A stretch of DNA of 64,000 nucleotides, taken from the NCBI RefSeq assembly GCF_004299785.2, contig NZ_CP036246.2:682001-746000 (forward strand), written 5' to 3'. Positions 30,012 to 36,122 of the stretch are shown piece by piece. The first letter of the stretch is position 1. Every line of letters starts with the position of its first letter. A program made the translations under genes and the position numbers. The notes beneath the pieces were generated by a model. It did not search any database and had not been told where the DNA came from. It saw nothing but the letters and a program-made list of their open reading frames with translations. Origin of the DNA: Arcobacter porcinus (lineage in GTDB: Bacteria > Campylobacterota > Campylobacteria > Campylobacterales > Arcobacteraceae).

Positions 30012-30266
30012 CTAAGCTTGTTTTGAATCTAATTTATCTGTTTTTTTATTGTTTTTTGTTTGGTAAAGCATATGGTGCCAAAGAGCAAAGCCACAGAAAG
30101 CGACACCAGCAATTACATGAGTATTTTTAGCAAGTTTATTTTTCATAAACATTGAAGTAACAACAGTAGCACCTAAAGTTGCAGTCATTCCAATTTTTGC
30201 AACTTCTCTTTGAACTTCTAAATCAAATGTTTTGTTTTCTTTCATCTCTTTTTTTTCTTCTTTCAT
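30012..30266 (-). CDS. Small two-span membrane protein of the ferrosome-like cluster
   Basis: 84 residues. A charged N-terminus is followed by two hydrophobic segments (about 26-40 and 48-66), a histidine pair (WHHMLYQ) and a lysine-rich tail. I do not recognise a named family. It overlaps the 40-residue gene upstream by 44 bases in another frame and lies behind the Fur-like boxes at 30359-30406, so it is probably iron-regulated with the neighbouring P1B ATPase region. Confidence 0.6.
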   Translation of the reverse strand: MKEEKKEMKENKTFDLEVQREVAKIGMTATLGATVVTSMFMKNKLAKNTHVIAGVAFCGFALWHHMLYQTKNNKKTDKLDSKQA

Positions 30267-30345
30267 AAGTTTTTAAACTCTTATTTACTGTTTTAACTGT
30301 CAAAACACCTGTAATAAATGTAGCAAGAGGTAATAAAAATGGCAT
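30223..30345 (-). CDS. 40-residue membrane microprotein behind Fur-like boxes
   Basis: The frame starts MPFLLPLATFITGVLTVKTV, giving one hydrophobic helix, then a strongly basic tail (KTYERRKKRDERKQNI). A clear AAGGAT ribosome site precedes the ATG at the right spacing. A -10 TAGAAT (30379-30374) sits between two Fur-like boxes. Function unknown; the promoter structure and ribosome site support it as a gene. Confidence 0.55.
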   Translation of the reverse strand: MPFLLPLATFITGVLTVKTVNKSLKTYERRKKRDERKQNI

Positions 30346-30358
30346 ATAGAATCCTTTT

Positions 30359-30406
30359 GATAATAGTTATCGAATTCTATTACTTAATTCCTTAAATAAA
30401 ACTGAT
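30359..30406 (-). promoter_or_regulatory. Pair of Fur-like boxes around a promoter
   Basis: Box 1 (30359-30371) reads GATAA-TAG-TTATC, a perfect palindrome whose extended 7-1-7 form closely matches the classical Fur box. Box 2 (30394-30406) reads GATAA-CTA-TTATT. The two are also inverted relative to each other: an 11-base repeat TAATAGTTATC / GATAACTATTA. A minus-strand -10 TAGAAT (30374-30379) lies between them, so one box covers the -35 region and the other the start site. Iron-dependent repression by Fur is the simplest reading. Confidence 0.65.
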
Positions 30407-30421
30407 AACTATTATTGAAAT

Positions 30422-32539
30422 CTATTTTCTTGCTAAATTTACACCTTTTATTGAGTTAAAAAGTAAAGCAATAGTTGTTCCATTGTGTAAAATTGCTGTT
30501 GTTATTGGAGAAAATAGTCCAAAAGTTGCACCTGCAAGTATTCCACTATTTATTCCAACTGTTGCATTAAAATTAGTATTTATCAAACTCATAGTTTTAT
30601 TTGCATACTCTTTTGCTTCAACAACAGCTATAATATCATCTTTTAATAAACTAATATCAGCAGTTGCTTTTGCTATATCAGCACCTTTGCTCATTGATAT
30701 TCCAACATGAGAAGATATTAAAGCAGGAGCATCATTTATTCCATCTCCAATAAAAGCAACTTTTCTACCTTCATCCATAAGCTCTTTTACAATATCGGCT
30801 TTTTCTTGAGGAAGTAATTCTGCTCTTACTTCGTCTATTCCTAACTCTTCTGCTACTTTTAAAGCTTTTTCTTTAATATCTCCTGTAAGCATTACAATGT
30901 TTTTTACTCCAAGAGATTTTAACTTTTTAATAGCATCTTTTGTGTTTGATCTTATCTCATCACTTAAACCAATAGTTCCAAGAAGTTTTCCATCATAAGC
31001 TACATAAAGCAAAGTATCACATTTTTTTAAAGACTCTTCAATCTCTTTTTTATAAGGCTTGAAATCTATTTTCTCATCATCTTCTAAAAAGTGCCTACTT
31101 CCAATAATAACAGCTTTGCCTTTTATCTCTGTTTTTACTCCATGAGCTACAATAAACTCTACTTCTTCATGGTGCATATGCACAAATCCACGCTCTTTTG
31201 CAGCTTTTACAACAGCTTCTGCAACAGGATGAAAATAGTGCTCTTCTGTTGAAGCAGTTAGATTTAATAGTTTTTCTTCCGTCCAATTCTTATCATATGA
31301 ATCAACACTAATAACTTCTAATTCACCACTTGTAAGTGTTCCTGTTTTATCAAAAACAAAAGTATCTGCACTTGCTAATGCTTCAATAGATTTTGCACCT
31401 TTTATCATAATTCCACTATGTCCAGCTTTTGAAATAGTAGATTTAAAAGCAACAGGAGTTGCCAGTTTTAGTGCACATGAATAATCAGCTTGTAAAACAG
31501 AAGCAACTCTTTCAAAATCTTTTGTAAATATATAAGCAGCACTTGCTAAACCTAAAGTTACAGGAACAAGCTTATCTGCTAGTTTATTTGCTTTTAACTG
31601 AGCAGATGATTTTTCATTTAAAGAGTTTTCTATATAGTGTTTTATTCTTTGTGTTGCTGTGTTTGCACCAACATGTTCAGCCCAAATTCTAAATCTTCCT
31701 TCTTCAACTATTGTTCCAGAAAGAACTTTATCTCCTCTATATTTTGCAATTGGTGTTGCTTCTCCTGTCATTGAAACTTGATTTATTGTTCCAGCTCCAT
31801 CAATTATATGTCCATCAATAGCAATAGTATTTCCAGCTCCAACAATTACAATATCACCAATTTTTATATCTTCAGTTTTTACAAGAACTTCACTTGTTTT
31901 TCCATCAACTCTTTTTTCAATCCAAGCTTCTTCGATATTTGGTTTTGCAAGTTCTTTTAATAAGTCATCACTTTTGTGAACAGTTGTTTCCTCAATATAT
32001 TCACCAAGTTCAAGCATTGCATTTGTAGAGTTCGCAGCAAGATAATCTTTTCTAAATATAGAAATTGCAACTGCACCAGCTTCTAAAACATGAGAAGTCA
32101 AACCCTCTTTAAATAGCTCTTTTGTTCCATCAATTAATAAAGGAGTACAAGCAAGTGTAGTTAAACCAGCTTTTAGATTATTATTTGTAATAACTCTTTC
32201 TAATGCAAGAGTTGAACTTGCAATTAAAGTACCTTTTATAGATGGTTTTTCATCACTAACACAAGAAACACAAACACTATTTGAGTTCATAGGAACAGAT
32301 TTTAAAAGATTATCTAAAGAGATTGTTTCAAGTTTTTCTTCAATTTCATTAAAAACATCACTATTTACTTCAAAAACAATAGAGTAAGCTTTTTTATTTA
32401 TTCTTATATTATTTATCTCTTTAATATCATTAAAATAACTTTTTAAGATATCTTCATCAATAAATTTTTCTTTTAAAATTTGAAGCTTATATCTTGCTCT
32501 ATTTTTTATTTGATGAACTTTTATAAACTTTGAATTCAT
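30422..32539 (-). CDS. P1B-type metal ATPase, ferrosome FezB-like
   Basis: 705 residues. The N-terminal domain is HMA-like in fold but lacks the GMxCxxC metal site; it has RARYK near residue 14 and a separate C-x2-C (C90, C93). The actuator TGE (258-260), phosphorylation motif DKTGT (397-401), HP motif (HPVAEAV) and GDGINDAP hinge are all intact. The membrane metal triad, CPC in copper pumps, reads S-C-A (S354-A356, within DYSCALKLATP), as described for the P1B-6 group that includes FezB of ferrosomes. With HMA-like, ferritin-like and small membrane proteins upstream, an iron transporter for an internal storage compartment is inferred. Generic heavy-metal efflux is the alternative. Confidence 0.85.
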   Translation of the reverse strand: MNSKFIKVHQIKNRARYKLQILKEKFIDEDILKSYFNDIKEINNIRINKKAYSIVFEVNSDVFNEIEEKLETISLDNLLKSVPMNSNSVCVSCVSDEKPSIKGTLIASSTLALERVITNNNLKAGLTTLACTPLLIDGTKELFKEGLTSHVLEAGAVAISIFRKDYLAANSTNAMLELGEYIEETTVHKSDDLLKELAKPNIEEAWIEKRVDGKTSEVLVKTEDIKIGDIVIVGAGNTIAIDGHIIDGAGTINQVSMTGEATPIAKYRGDKVLSGTIVEEGRFRIWAEHVGANTATQRIKHYIENSLNEKSSAQLKANKLADKLVPVTLGLASAAYIFTKDFERVASVLQADYSCALKLATPVAFKSTISKAGHSGIMIKGAKSIEALASADTFVFDKTGTLTSGELEVISVDSYDKNWTEEKLLNLTASTEEHYFHPVAEAVVKAAKERGFVHMHHEEVEFIVAHGVKTEIKGKAVIIGSRHFLEDDEKIDFKPYKKEIEESLKKCDTLLYVAYDGKLLGTIGLSDEIRSNTKDAIKKLKSLGVKNIVMLTGDIKEKALKVAEELGIDEVRAELLPQEKADIVKELMDEGRKVAFIGDGINDAPALISSHVGISMSKGADIAKATADISLLKDDIIAVVEAKEYANKTMSLINTNFNATVGINSGILAGATFGLFSPITTAILHNGTTIALLFNSIKGVNLARK

Positions 32540-32553
32540 TTTAAATACTTTTA

Positions 32554-32880
32554 TTAATCTTTTGGATGATGAGAAGCTGCAGCTTTTGCATCTTCAATTC
32601 TCTCTTTTAACTCTTCAACACCAGCACTTACAAAACCTTTTGCTTTTTCAAATGTTTTAAAGATAGTCTCTTGAGCATTTTTGTTTGTTAAAACATAAGT
32701 TGCTATTGCACCAATTAATGCACCTTTTATAAAATCCCCATTTAATAAAGAGTTTGATTGATTTTGAGTATTATTGTTTTGATTCAAATTTTGATTTATA
32801 TATGGGTTTTGATTTAAATTTGAACTATTATTAGAAACATTTCTTGTTGAGTTAATATCATTGTTATATTGATTATTCAT
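32554..32880 (-). CDS. Small Asn-rich, YtxH-like protein of the ferrosome-like cluster
   Basis: 108 residues. The N-terminal 45 residues are extremely asparagine/glutamine-rich and probably disordered. A glycine/alanine helix (GALIGAIATYVLT, about 55-68) follows, then an amphipathic helix (EELKERIEDAKAA) and a histidine pair near the end. It resembles small membrane-associated proteins seen next to compartment-forming P1B ATPases, but no named family is recognised. It overlaps the next upstream gene by eight bases. Confidence 0.6.
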   Translation of the reverse strand: MNNQYNNDINSTRNVSNNSSNLNQNPYINQNLNQNNNTQNQSNSLLNGDFIKGALIGAIATYVLTNKNAQETIFKTFEKAKGFVSAGVEELKERIEDAKAAASHHPKD

Positions 32881-33223
32881 TATCTTCTCCTAGTTGTATA
32901 TTTTGATTTGTTAAATATTTTTCTTCTAACTTCTCTTCTATTATTTCAAGTGCATAAACACCAGCTAAACCAATGCTTAAAGCTGTAAAAGCTCTAAGAT
33001 AGTTTCCTTCTCCAATATAGTTTGTAGTTGCGATTGCACTTCCTGTTACAATTGCTCCTTGAGAAGCTCTTTTTACAGTATCTTTGATTGCATAGTTTTT
33101 ATTTAAAGAACCATTTTGAGTCTTTTTATAGTTAATAGCTCCACTAATAACAGCACTAGCAATTGCACCACTAATTACATGCCCTAAAACATTTCTTGGT
33201 GTTCCTGTATCTATCTTTTTCAT
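32873..33223 (-). CDS. Glycine/alanine-rich membrane protein of the ferrosome-like cluster
   Basis: 116 residues. Three weakly hydrophobic segments rich in small residues: HVISGAIASAVISGAI (about 15-30), SQGAIVTGSAIATT (54-67) and AFTALSIGLAGVYAL (79-93). The C-terminus is acidic. Such low-bulk segments are typical of proteins lining small membrane compartments, but this is only a resemblance. Ribosome site GAGG; it overlaps its neighbours on both sides by 4-8 bases, so it is tightly coupled. Confidence 0.6.
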   Translation of the reverse strand: MKKIDTGTPRNVLGHVISGAIASAVISGAINYKKTQNGSLNKNYAIKDTVKRASQGAIVTGSAIATTNYIGEGNYLRAFTALSIGLAGVYALEIIEEKLEEKYLTNQNIQLGEDNE

Positions 33224-33471
33224 TTTGTTACCTCTTTATTTGAAACTATTTTTTTAGTATATTTTCTTTTTGGTTTTTCTTGAACTTCTTTTAACTCAGA
33301 CTTTATATCTTCTTTTTTTAATTTATTTTCAATTGTTTTTTTTGTAGATACAACTTTTTCTTTTGCAATATCCATAACTTTTTTTGATCTATTTTTTAAT
33401 AAATCTCTATTTTTATAAGCTACAACAGCACTCGCTCCTACAAAAATTCCTGCTAAAAAAGGTAATGCCAT
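33220..33471 (-). CDS. Single-span protein with long basic tail, ferrosome-like cluster
   Basis: 83 residues. One N-terminal hydrophobic helix (LPFLAGIFVGASAVVAY) is followed by about 60 residues dominated by lysine (RSKKVMDIAKEK, KPKRKYTKK). AAGGAG ribosome site with good spacing. No family recognised. The charge pattern suggests a membrane anchor facing an acidic or nucleic-acid partner, which is speculation. Confidence 0.6.
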   Translation of the reverse strand: MALPFLAGIFVGASAVVAYKNRDLLKNRSKKVMDIAKEKVVSTKKTIENKLKKEDIKSELKEVQEKPKRKYTKKIVSNKEVTK

Positions 33472-33474
33472 AAT

Positions 33475-34158
33475 TTACTCCTTATCTTGATTTGGTTTAT
33501 TATAAGAACTTAATAACTGATTTATAATAGCTATTAAAGCTCCTCCAGTAAGAGCTCCACCTATAAAATTCAAATTTAATTTTGAAAGTAGATTTGATAT
33601 TGAACTTTCATCTAAATTTCCTGAAGAAAATTGTGAATAAAGTTCTTGATATTGAGCTAAATCTTGCATTAGCTTTTCTTGATTAAATCCATTGTTAGAT
33701 GAATTATTATAATAGTTTTGTACATGAGTTCTAAAAGCTGGTAAATGATTATTATATGATGCAGCTTGAAGTCTATAAAGAGTATCAATTATATCACTAT
33801 CTTGAGCATAAGAAAGAAGATGATTGTATAGAGCAATATTATTTATCTCTCCAGCAACTCCCAGTTCATAACACTCAATCAAAGTTTCAGGAATAGATAT
33901 TTTATTTTCTAAATCATTAATAGGAACTTCAATATTATATTTTTGCATAATTTGTATAAGTACTGAGTAATGTACAGCTTCAGCCTCTTTTATATTTATA
34001 AAAGGGTTTATATTTCCAAATTTCTCTATTACTTTTGTATAGATTTCATAAGCTTTAAACTCATCATATACAGCAATTTGTAAAATTTGGTTACGAATAG
34101 GAATATTTGAATTTTCATCTATTTTTTTACTAGATAAAATATTGTAATCAATTGCCAT
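33475..34158 (-). CDS. Ferritin-like (DUF2202-type) protein with membrane tail
   Basis: 227 residues. A four-helix ferritin-like domain (about 22-145) has spaced acidic/histidine positions (YDEFKAYEIY, KEAEAVHYSVL, GVAGEINNIALYNHL, HLPAFRTHVQNYY) like DUF2202 proteins. A Ser/Asn-rich linker leads to a C-terminal hydrophobic segment (FIGGALTGGALIAIIN, about 197-212) that could anchor it to a membrane. An iron-handling role beside the P1B ATPase is inferred. The HMA-like gene upstream ends at its start codon. Confidence 0.75.
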   Translation of the reverse strand: MAIDYNILSSKKIDENSNIPIRNQILQIAVYDEFKAYEIYTKVIEKFGNINPFINIKEAEAVHYSVLIQIMQKYNIEVPINDLENKISIPETLIECYELGVAGEINNIALYNHLLSYAQDSDIIDTLYRLQAASYNNHLPAFRTHVQNYYNNSSNNGFNQEKLMQDLAQYQELYSQFSSGNLDESSISNLLSKLNLNFIGGALTGGALIAIINQLLSSYNKPNQDKE

Positions 34159-34469
34159 TAAATCTCCTTTATAAGATTATTTATAATATCACTAATTTCT
34201 GAAATATTTTTTTGTTTTATTAAATCTTCCCATAAAGAAGGTTTAAAGATATCTGGATCGTAAATAATTGTAACAGAAGCGATGATTTTATTTATTTTTA
34301 TATCTTTTATACCAGATATTTTTGAGGGTAAAGATTCAATATCTCCTAAGGAGATATTGTCACTCTCTTTTACTATTTTAGGGTTTACTCTAACTCTTAA
34401 TCTTCCAGGAGTATGAGCAATAATTGAAAAGTAACTTGCTATTTTTATTATTGTTTCATTGTCAATCAA
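34158..34469 (-). CDS. HMA-like protein of the ferrosome-like cluster (FezC-like)
   Basis: 103 residues, TTG start with a GAGGAG site embedded in the nhaA stop region. It has a ferredoxin-like HMA_2 fold pattern: HTPGRLRVRVNPK (about 19-31), then a beta-alpha-beta unit ending ASVTIIYDP. It lacks the copper-chaperone CxxC and has the arginine-rich G-R-x-R-x-R segment instead, a feature I associate with HMA partners of compartment-type P1B ATPases. It is the first gene after nhaA, two bases away. Confidence 0.7.
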   Translation of the reverse strand: MIDNETIIKIASYFSIIAHTPGRLRVRVNPKIVKESDNISLGDIESLPSKISGIKDIKINKIIASVTIIYDPDIFKPSLWEDLIKQKNISEISDIINNLIKEI

Positions 34470-34471
34470 CT

Positions 34472-35719
34472 TTACTCCTCTTTTATCTCATTGTTTTTTC
34501 TGCTTAAAAAAAGTAGTAAACAAACTCCAATAACAGCAGCTGTTATTGAACTTGCGAATACAGCAATTTTTACAGCACTTACTACATGAGGATCACTAAA
34601 TGCTAAATGAGATATAAATATTGACATAGTAAATCCAATTCCACCAAGGAAACCAACAGCTATAATCTCACTCCAAGATACATTTGATGGTTTTTCACTA
34701 ACTTTAAATATAGTTGCAAGATAAGTAAATAGCAAAATTCCAAGAGGTTTACCTAAAACTAAACCAAAAAATACTCCTAAAACAATAGTGCTATTTTCAA
34801 TAACACTTTCAAACTCTAAAGCAACACCTGCATTTGCAAAGGCAAATAAAGGCATTATTAAAAATGCACTAAAGTTGTGTAAAGCGTGTTCTACTCTTAA
34901 AAGAGGACTTTTTGAGTTGTGCTCTTCTATCTCTTCAACAGATGTTTTATTTGATTTTAATGGAATAACAAAAGCAAGTAATATACCAGCAATTGTAGAG
35001 TGAATTCCTGAACTATGAACAAAAATCCATAAGAATACACCAACAAATAAATAAGGCATAACTCTTGTAAGATTAAAGTAGTTAAATAACATTAAAACAA
35101 AATATGTAAGTGCTGAATAAATTAAGAAATCATAGTGAAGTTCACTTGTATAAAATATTGCTACAACTACAATTGCTCCTAAGTCATCTACAACAGCTAA
35201 TGTAACTAAAAATACTTTAATAGATAAGCTAACTCTTTTTCCTAAAAGCATTAAAATCCCAAGTGCAAAAGCAATATCTGTTGCCATTGGTACACCAAAA
35301 CCAGTTGGATGAGTTCTATCTATAAGAAGGTAAAAAATTGCAGGAACTATCATTCCACCAAGAGCCGCAATTATTGGAAAAGATGCTTTTTTTAAGCTTG
35401 ATAACTCTCCTATTAGCATATCTCTTTTTATCTCTAAACCAACAACAAGAAAGAAAATTGCCATTAAAACATCATTTATCCAGTGTTGTAAAGTCATTGA
35501 AAAAATATGAGTACCAAATGAAAAACTAAAATGAGTTTCAAGTATCTCAAAATATTGTGGTGCAAAAGTTGAATTTGCTATATAAACTGCTAAAACAGTT
35601 ACTAAAAAAAGTTTAAATCCACTTAGAGTTGCAGTTGATATAAAGCTTAATATAAACTTATATTGATTTCTTATATTTACTATTGTTCTTAAGTATTTTC
35701 TTGGGAGTAGATTAGCCAT
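34472..35719 (-). CDS. nhaA: Na+/H+ antiporter NhaA
   Basis: 415 residues, about twelve membrane helices. The ion-site region VDDLGAIVVVAIFYT (with the two adjacent aspartates) and the unwound-helix segment GFGVPMATDIAFALGIL are intact. It exchanges sodium for protons across the inner membrane. Its start overlaps the end of the upstream Fur/Zur-family gene by eight bases, and the ferrosome-like genes follow with no gap. An ion exchanger in this setting could balance proton or charge movement, but this may be only shared transcription. Confidence 0.95.
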   Translation of the reverse strand: MANLLPRKYLRTIVNIRNQYKFILSFISTATLSGFKLFLVTVLAVYIANSTFAPQYFEILETHFSFSFGTHIFSMTLQHWINDVLMAIFFLVVGLEIKRDMLIGELSSLKKASFPIIAALGGMIVPAIFYLLIDRTHPTGFGVPMATDIAFALGILMLLGKRVSLSIKVFLVTLAVVDDLGAIVVVAIFYTSELHYDFLIYSALTYFVLMLFNYFNLTRVMPYLFVGVFLWIFVHSSGIHSTIAGILLAFVIPLKSNKTSVEEIEEHNSKSPLLRVEHALHNFSAFLIMPLFAFANAGVALEFESVIENSTIVLGVFFGLVLGKPLGILLFTYLATIFKVSEKPSNVSWSEIIAVGFLGGIGFTMSIFISHLAFSDPHVVSAVKIAVFASSITAAVIGVCLLLFLSRKNNEIKEE

Positions 35720-36122
35720 TTTTGTTACAGTCCTTACATTGTCCTTTTAGGATAATATTGTCAATTTTATAATTTTTTAGAGAAAAATTTGGTTCTTCAA
35801 ATATGCACTCTATATTTAAACAAACATCACAAATAAAATGAATATGCTCTTTGTCTTTGATTTCAAAATATCTTTTTTTATCGTTTGACTCAAAAGAGTT
35901 AATAAGTTTATGCTCTTCAAAAAATGTAATATTTCTATAAAAAGTAGCTTTATCCATAACTATATCATTTTTAATATCTTCATAAGACAGCGGTCTTTTA
36001 GATTTTAATAAAAGGTCTAAGATACTTTTTCTAGCATTTGTAAGTTTTATATTTGAAAAGAATTTTTTATTTTCTAAATTTTTCATAAGGAAAATATTAC
36101 CAAAAACTTTATTAAGTGCCAC
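35712..36122 (-). CDS. Fur-family metalloregulator, probably Zur
   Basis: About 136 residues from a GTG (36122); an internal ATG (36086) would give 124. The winged helix (LTNARKSILDLLLKSKRPLSYEDIK, DKATFYRN) is followed by a dimerisation/metal domain with HIHFICDVCLNIEC and CKDCN, so the two structural-zinc CxxC pairs are present. It is divergent from a znuA-like zinc-uptake gene, which favours Zur over Fur. The 15-bp palindrome between them is its likely operator. It heads a run through nhaA into the ferrosome-like genes. The start codon is uncertain because neither candidate has a good ribosome site. Confidence 0.8.
   Translation of the reverse strand: MALNKVFGNIFLMKNLENKKFFSNIKLTNARKSILDLLLKSKRPLSYEDIKNDIVMDKATFYRNITFFEEHKLINSFESNDKKRYFEIKDKEHIHFICDVCLNIECIFEEPNFSLKNYKIDNIILKGQCKDCNKNG

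Follow-up and report, generated by a model that had tools for sequence, protein, structure and literature searches.

In a 64,000-nucleotide stretch of the Arcobacter porcinus genome (contig NZ_CP036246.2, positions 682,001 to 746,000; hereafter the window), eight open reading frames (ORFs) run head to tail on the minus strand from 34469 to 30012, most neighbours overlapping or standing a few bases apart. We read them as a Fur-controlled, ferrosome-type (fez) gene cluster, with a probability of about 0.78. A sequence-only reading had proposed a ferrosome-like cluster of eight genes on one strand, five of them for small proteins; all of these ORFs are present, including small ones of 83, 116, 108, 40 and 84 amino acids, with the correction that the ORF at 30223-30345 overlaps the start of that at 30012-30266. 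The ferrosome-like interpretation draws support from the clade in which the ATPase falls, a FezC-like candidate, Fur boxes in relatives, and partners that are conserved across phyla. Known fez clusters reportedly include those of Desulfovibrio magneticus, Rhodopseudomonas palustris and Shewanella putrefaciens (Grant et al. 2022).

The ATPase carries DKTGT and, in its fourth transmembrane helix (TM4), YSCALK, the S-C-A membrane triad that had been noticed from the sequence, and it scores well above the cut-off of the generic heavy-metal ATPase model of NCBIfam. Its N-terminal HMA_2 domain, just under the Pfam cut-off, reads NRARY in place of CxxC. A TM4 other than CPC and an HMA-like domain free of CxxC are features of a P1B-6-type pump, and both are found here. 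The earlier reading made no mention of a C90-x-x-C93 pair (CVSC, window 32261-32272), which lies between the HMA_2 domain and TM1, outside the HMA_2 motif; a CxxC occurs somewhere within the first 110 residues in 39 of 147 family members. TM4 reads SCA at 132 of 147 loci, and nearly all of the others examined read ACA, with one SCS and one truncated ORF. The TM4 motif of the clade is of the DY[SA]CA type, in place of CPC. In a PMSF (posterior mean site frequency) maximum-likelihood tree of 58 pumps, the FezB-type sequences form one clade with support of 100/99. Pumps for Cu, Zn/Cd and K (CopA-type, other CPC-type and KdpB) all lie outside it, and so do those of the CtpC type. A grouping with Cu, Zn or Mn exporters, the outcome that had been named in advance as grounds for abandoning the ferrosome interpretation, was not seen. 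The pumps closest to the clade are those of Vibrio and Cereibacter plasmids, with DYSCA or DYACP motifs. The distant FezB-like pump on the Cereibacter plasmid adjoins FeoA and siderophore receptors, a neighbourhood that we counted in favour of the ferrosome-type reading.

The main rival is a metal-efflux platform like mycobacterial CtpC/PacL, which likewise combines a P1B pump with small scaffold proteins in the membrane. On this account a toxic metal would be exported over the inner membrane, the small proteins would merely cluster the ATPase, and there would be no intracellular store. The small transmembrane proteins of the PacL1 (DUF1490) type serve as scaffolds that assemble CtpC, a P1B ATPase, into membrane platforms (PMC9374683), and small-protein scaffolds alone are therefore no proof of an organelle. 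In addition, the window ATPase has a distant relative in a pump from a Pseudonocardia plasmid, whose gene adjoins that of a DUF1490 protein. Nevertheless, we consider an efflux platform unlikely: pumps of the CtpC type lie outside the FezB clade and read CPC in TM4, a Pfam search of the window found no DUF1490 protein, and the Fur boxes, ferritin-like protein and FezC-like protein set out below point to iron and redox.

Fur control is found here through sites in relatives of the cluster, and there is precedent for it in the Fur-repressed fezAB genes of C. difficile (PMC12574912). The 150 bases preceding the HMA gene and the 150 bases following fezB were scored for a 15-base Fur box, TGATAATNATTATCA. 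Among 85 Campylobacterota loci, the stretch after fezB holds a perfect 15/15 site in 19 and a 14/15 site in 7, and none of 1700 shuffles exceeded 13; before the HMA gene, a 14/15 site occurs in 9 of 83 loci. Across 78 distinct loci, matches of at least 14/15 number 46 in the 23 kb of these two gaps; the 811 kb elsewhere hold 39, of which several still sit at cluster borders. In about 31 loci the HMA gene is immediately preceded, on the same strand, by a Fur-family gene, with a PF01475 match in all 10 that were tested. Judged from these sequences, the Fur boxes and the upstream Fur-family gene argue for iron. Fur-family regulators can also activate efflux genes, and such activation is conceivable for an Fe(II) exporter cluster that serves detoxification only, with iron leaving the cell and the ferritin-like protein acting as a separate buffer. 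P1B pumps tied to Fe(II) and Ni(II) export do exist (Nia, P1B-5; PMC4932525). We think such an exporter improbable, and slightly more so than the efflux platform: repression through Fur boxes, with expression under iron scarcity, is ill suited to an exporter, it is not obvious what simple export would need MamC-type and glycine-zipper proteins for, and genomes with fez mostly lack the ferritin FtnA.

The partners of the ATPase show conserved features of their own. The HMA-like protein had been described as carrying G-R-x-R-x-R, and GRLRVR is indeed what it has, with no CxxC; the pattern GRxRx[RK] is kept in 130 of 134 loci, and the protein is a candidate iron-handling partner of the ATPase. 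Its gene starts with TTG, with AGGAG in front. At the other end of the cluster, the FezC-like protein has H-x13-H in all 66 members, H50 and H64 being invariant. DUF4405 is matched by 21 of 30 members, at best with E 1.7e-4, and by the window protein with E 0.01, below the cut-off. It thus resembles a DUF4405-like di-histidine cytochrome, for which a role in haem binding is predicted. FezC itself was shown to be a haem b cytochrome of DUF4405-like type, in which homodimerising may bring the histidines into pairs (PMC10979944). The YtxH-like family is conserved across phyla (E 1e-23 to 1e-41), with its zipper in 126 of 128 members, and the NCBI name for one orthologue is 'YtxH domain-containing protein'. 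The zipper [FLIVM]xxGxxxG[AGV] is present in 91% of ferritin-like tails, 80% of 83-residue proteins and 98% of YtxH-like proteins, versus 7%, 6% and 17% in the respective shuffles. This sharing suggests a common membrane-packing code that may bring the ferritin-like domain to the same membrane.

By profile-profile comparison, the 116-residue protein is homologous to the magnetosome protein MamC over its whole length. It matches the NCBIfam MamC model (NF038051) with E 3e-5 and 24.2 bits, short of the curated equivalog cut-off of 100 bits, and we therefore call it a relative of MamC and do not file it as MamC. The model is matched by 7 of 25 diverse members of the family, and no other family recurs. 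Against a bona fide MamC profile built from relatives in the Magnetospirillum family, hhalign gave a probability of 96.8 and E 2.4e-10 over 95 columns with a score of 59.9; the controls reached at most 18.6 (60 column shuffles), 18.8 (reversed) and 24 (other small families of the cluster). The AlphaFold2 (AF2) model has three confident helices at residues 12-36, 42-71 and 75-107 (predicted local distance difference test, pLDDT, 89), and a fold search of the PDB with it returned nothing significant. A Glu66/Asp70 pair is reported to act in magnetite nucleation by MamC (PMC6584501). Both positions are acidic (E or D, then D) in 33 of 72 Campylobacterota members; the window protein has Tyr and Asp. 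The corresponding fez proteins of Pseudomonadota are too distant for a direct match (hhalign probability 5) and connect to MamC only through the Campylobacterota family. When Azospirillum, Aeromonas, Thauera and three genomes named Magnetospirillum were searched with NF038051, no MamC was matched.

The ferritin-like protein, which had been read as having a membrane tail, ends in a hydrophobic stretch of 19 residues, FIGGALTGGALIAIINQLL. It belongs with DUF2202/rubrerythrin in Pfam (DUF2202 E 1.5e-4, over the cut-off), as do 38 of 57 relatives. AF2 predicts a four-helix bundle, with pLDDT 90-99 over residues 1-150 and a low-confidence tail, and the fold matches ferritins and bacterioferritins, including FtnA, with Z of about 17; the best Foldseek match is MJ0754. 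The ligands E33, E60-x-x-H63, E104 and H138, kept in 44 of 57 members, fill five of the six positions of a di-iron set, the fourth-helix Glu being Tyr or Phe. In Campylobacter the corresponding sequence is ERAEY or similar, and the metal site is therefore gone there, with the tail retained; it is also lost in Lautropia and a few others. The decay in Campylobacter would fit a relative of ferrosomes that stores a different metal, or protein-membrane bodies with no mineral, and the substrate assignment does rest on family membership. We rate this the least probable of the three alternatives, as the Fur boxes and Fur-family regulators point away from it.

The FezB-type orthologues share 48-97% identity, versus about 35% or less for other P1B pumps over comparable length, in a search of 60 relatives, and the full gene order is kept across the genus and other families of the order. 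A 71-residue N-domain signature, EEHYFHP ... FIVAHGV ... GSRH, served as marker of the ATPase family. Of 397 Campylobacterota genomes, 135 contain it, always as a single copy and with E < 1e-35, and 28 of 68 genera are represented. When GTDB contigs were scanned with the signature, 248 loci matched, of which 80 were kept; these include Campylobacter, Helicobacter, Thauera, Azospirillum, Aeromonas, Magnetospirillum and Lautropia, with none from Shewanella, Rhodopseudomonas, Desulfovibrio or Clostridioides among the 80. A contig of Aliarcobacter vitoriensis also carries a fez locus. Profiles built from Campylobacterota alone were then run against the 6787 ORFs of 52 Pseudomonadota loci, and matches in the 3.6 kb upstream of the ATPase were counted. 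The HMA family was found beside the ATPase in 47 loci, the MamC-type family in 46 and nowhere else, the YtxH-like family in 46, and the 83-residue family in 45, an upper bound because some assignments in Alphaproteobacteria took the YtxH-like ORF instead. The ferritin-like family was beside the ATPase in 17 loci and nowhere else, and the gene is thus not unique to Campylobacterota; the FezC-like gene is essentially specific to that phylum in this sample. Typical clusters of Azospirillum, Aeromonas and Azoarcus have two HMA genes of the GRxRxR type and four others. The gene set is not a chance assembly, since the whole of it is syntenic across the genus and in further families of the phylum, and four of the partner families are met again in Pseudomonadota.

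Variants of the cluster were seen as well. Metagenome-assembled genomes of Helicobacteraceae (L063, L066-L071) have a minimal version of five genes (HMA, 83-residue type, MamC-type, YtxH-like and ATPase), with an ATPase of about 610-640 residues that has no N-terminal HMA_2 domain. In Arcobacter isolates from chicken meat the cluster is borne on plasmids (CP129951.1, with the whole gene set, L148; and CP134847.1), and the kit is therefore mobile. In other Campylobacterota (L107, L134, L153, L158, L169, L174), an ORF of 703-746 residues lies directly upstream of the HMA gene and has an R-type motif such as GRARLKS at its N-terminus; in L107 and L134 this ORF encodes another P1B ATPase, with a CPC TM4, which forms a clade of its own and may be a paired pump. 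A Priestia megaterium plasmid (L224) has a distinct cluster of HMA2, P1B ATPase (TM4 ICG), HMA2 and a small protein, and its ATPase type recurs on other Priestia plasmids; this is possibly a separate metal-platform system. On a Lacticaseibacillus paracasei plasmid (L227), a P1B ATPase (TM4 CPG) is followed by an HMA protein and then a ferritin-like protein, an independent pairing of such a pump with a ferritin-like protein.

Several points weigh against the ferrosome interpretation. Orthology to the proven FezB proteins is read indirectly, from the TM4 motif, the partners and the gene number, and the organelle, its iron content and the metal specificity are predictions from the genes. The two Fur-box-like sites of the window, at 13/15 and 12/15, would by themselves lack significance, and the window has no clear Fur site before the HMA gene. 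The cellular ferritins, in contrast, count in favour of the interpretation. The complete genome to which the window belongs encodes a single PF00210 protein, a Dps, and no ferritin. Within the genus, a sequence-checked FtnA-type ferritin is present in 1 of 23 genomes with fez versus 4 of 8 without (Fisher p 0.0098), an association that is post hoc, small and ignores descent, and some genomes with fez have a different Dps-like ferritin. That fez replaces ferritin in the genus is only suggestive.

If the cluster does encode a ferrosome, its proteins might work together as follows. The FezB-type ATPase would pump cytosolic Fe(II) into a membrane vesicle, as its family suggests, and the Arg-type HMA protein, together with the ATPase's own Arg-type HMA_2 domain, may hand over or gate the substrate. 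The small glycine-zipper proteins, with their shared and conserved zippers, could pack together in the vesicle membrane and shape or hold the vesicle. On the cytosolic face, the tail-anchored ferritin-like protein would, from its anatomy and ligands, bind or oxidise iron for loading; in Campylobacter it may have turned structural. The helical loop of the MamC-type protein might face the lumen and seed or limit an iron mineral, as MamC does with magnetite. The FezC-like cytochrome could move electrons across the membrane, with iron reduced for release or kept ferrous for transport (compare PMC10979944). Iron starvation would derepress the genes through Fur, and returning iron would then be stored.

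The coordinates of the cluster and its associated features are collected in the table.

Table. Features of the fez cluster and its surroundings (window positions).
Position	Strand	Feature	Evidence
34158..34469	-	HMA_2-like protein, 103 aa, GRLRVR replacing CxxC	Pfam HMA_2 E 7e-7, just under cut-off
33475..34158	-	Ferritin-like DUF2202-type protein, 227 aa, C-terminal glycine-zipper membrane tail at residues ~198-216	
33220..33471	-	Single-transmembrane protein, 83 aa, FLAGIFVGA glycine zipper at N-terminus, then basic/coiled tail	Hydropathy, zipper statistics, synteny
32873..33223	-	MamC (Mms13)-related protein with two transmembrane helices, 116 aa	NCBIfam MamC, hhalign, AF2
32554..32880	-	YtxH-like protein, 108 aa	Conservation, zipper
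30422..32539	-	FezB-type (P1B-6-like) P-type ATPase, 705 aa, TM4 YSCALK	Motifs, tree clade
30223..30345	-	Basic protein, 40 aa, one transmembrane helix, conserved in Campylobacterota	Downstream of ATPase in 58 loci
30012..30266	-	FezC-like DUF4405-type small cytochrome candidate, 84 aa, invariant H50 and H64	
30358..30372	+	Fur-box-like site, 13/15 to the 15-base box, in the gap that separates fezB from the two genes downstream	
30403..30417	+	Second, weaker Fur-box-like site, 12/15	
35712..36122	-	Fur-family regulator, Zur-like position, divergent from ZnuA-type gene	Pfam FUR E 1e-13

The YtxH-like protein consists of an Asn/Gln-rich NPY N-terminus, a FIKGALIGA glycine zipper and an amphipathic C-terminal helix. 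Upstream of the fez genes lie nhaA, which ends 2 bases before the start of the HMA gene, and then the Fur-family gene; the downstream neighbour is pyrH. It is possible that Fur, nhaA and fez form one transcription unit in this genome, headed by the Fur-family gene, an association that is positional. This arrangement (34472-36122), with nhaA and a Fur homologue in the Zur position directly before the fez genes, is seen in the window genome and close relatives. Elsewhere in the genus, a dedicated Fur homologue occupies that place in many species, and two species (L042 and L043) have both arrangements. Scans for Rfam families, tRNAs and tandem repeats added nothing, and promoter-like sites were no more numerous than in shuffles.

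It is tempting to go further and propose, as a tentative idea to which we give slightly less than even odds, that ferrosomes and magnetosomes share a homologous MamC-type mineral-controlling protein, and that Campylobacterota add an anchored ferritin-like loader and a haem carrier, largely replacing ferritin, including in host-associated Campylobacter, Helicobacter and Aliarcobacter. To our knowledge, the MamC-type protein is the first sequence link between ferrosome-type operons and magnetosome mineral control; the literature naming both MamC and ferrosomes, as far as it was checked and with the founding ferrosome papers not covered, holds no homology link. As far as could be checked, the Campylobacterota variant with ferritin-like and MamC-type proteins is undescribed, and the founding papers, which lay outside that check, may already describe part of it. 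Campylobacterota may also lie within the published distribution of FezB. If the interpretation is true, about one third of sampled Campylobacterota, including host-associated genera, keep iron in a lipid-bounded store, either in addition to ferritin or in its place, and this bears on how they survive iron starvation. Moreover, the MamC-type link makes the shared origin of iron organelles a testable question, and the eight-gene anatomy (Arg-type HMA, zipper proteins, anchored ferritin-like protein and cytochrome) offers a defined set to reconstitute.

Compared with known systems, the cluster combines familiar parts in a distinct way. Like CtpC/PacL platforms (PMC9374683), it joins a P1B ATPase to small membrane scaffold proteins; those platforms differ in their CPC TM4, their DUF1490 partner, their zinc substrate, and the lack of a ferritin-like or cytochrome gene. 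Membership of the CtpC/PacL group was considered and rejected for the window cluster, as the DUF1490 partner and the CPC TM4 are both absent. The 116-residue protein resembles MamC/Mms13 in its length, in two membrane helices flanking a helical loop, and in a full-length profile alignment, and in the window it keeps the Asp of the Glu66/Asp70 motif and the following T-x-K. It differs in that its gene stands beside a FezB-type ATPase, in a score of 24 versus 100 bits, and in the Tyr at the Glu66 position, though that position is acidic in most relatives. With the DUF2202/ferritin-like superfamily (MJ0754, bacterioferritin, rubrerythrin) the anchored protein shares the four-helix bundle and the E, ExxH, E and H at di-metal positions, and it differs in its added membrane tail and in Tyr/Phe for the fourth-helix Glu. 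As in known fez clusters, an operon with a P1B-6-type ATPase has small partners, a DUF4405-like FezC cytochrome and Fur control. R. palustris has six fez genes, RPA2333-2338 (PMC12016538), a count that the six-gene clusters of Azospirillum, Aeromonas and Azoarcus match by number only, and many Pseudomonadota relatives likewise have about six. In contrast, the Campylobacterota version comprises eight genes, including that for the 40-residue protein, and the place taken by a second HMA protein in many Pseudomonadota is held there by a DUF2202 ferritin-like protein.

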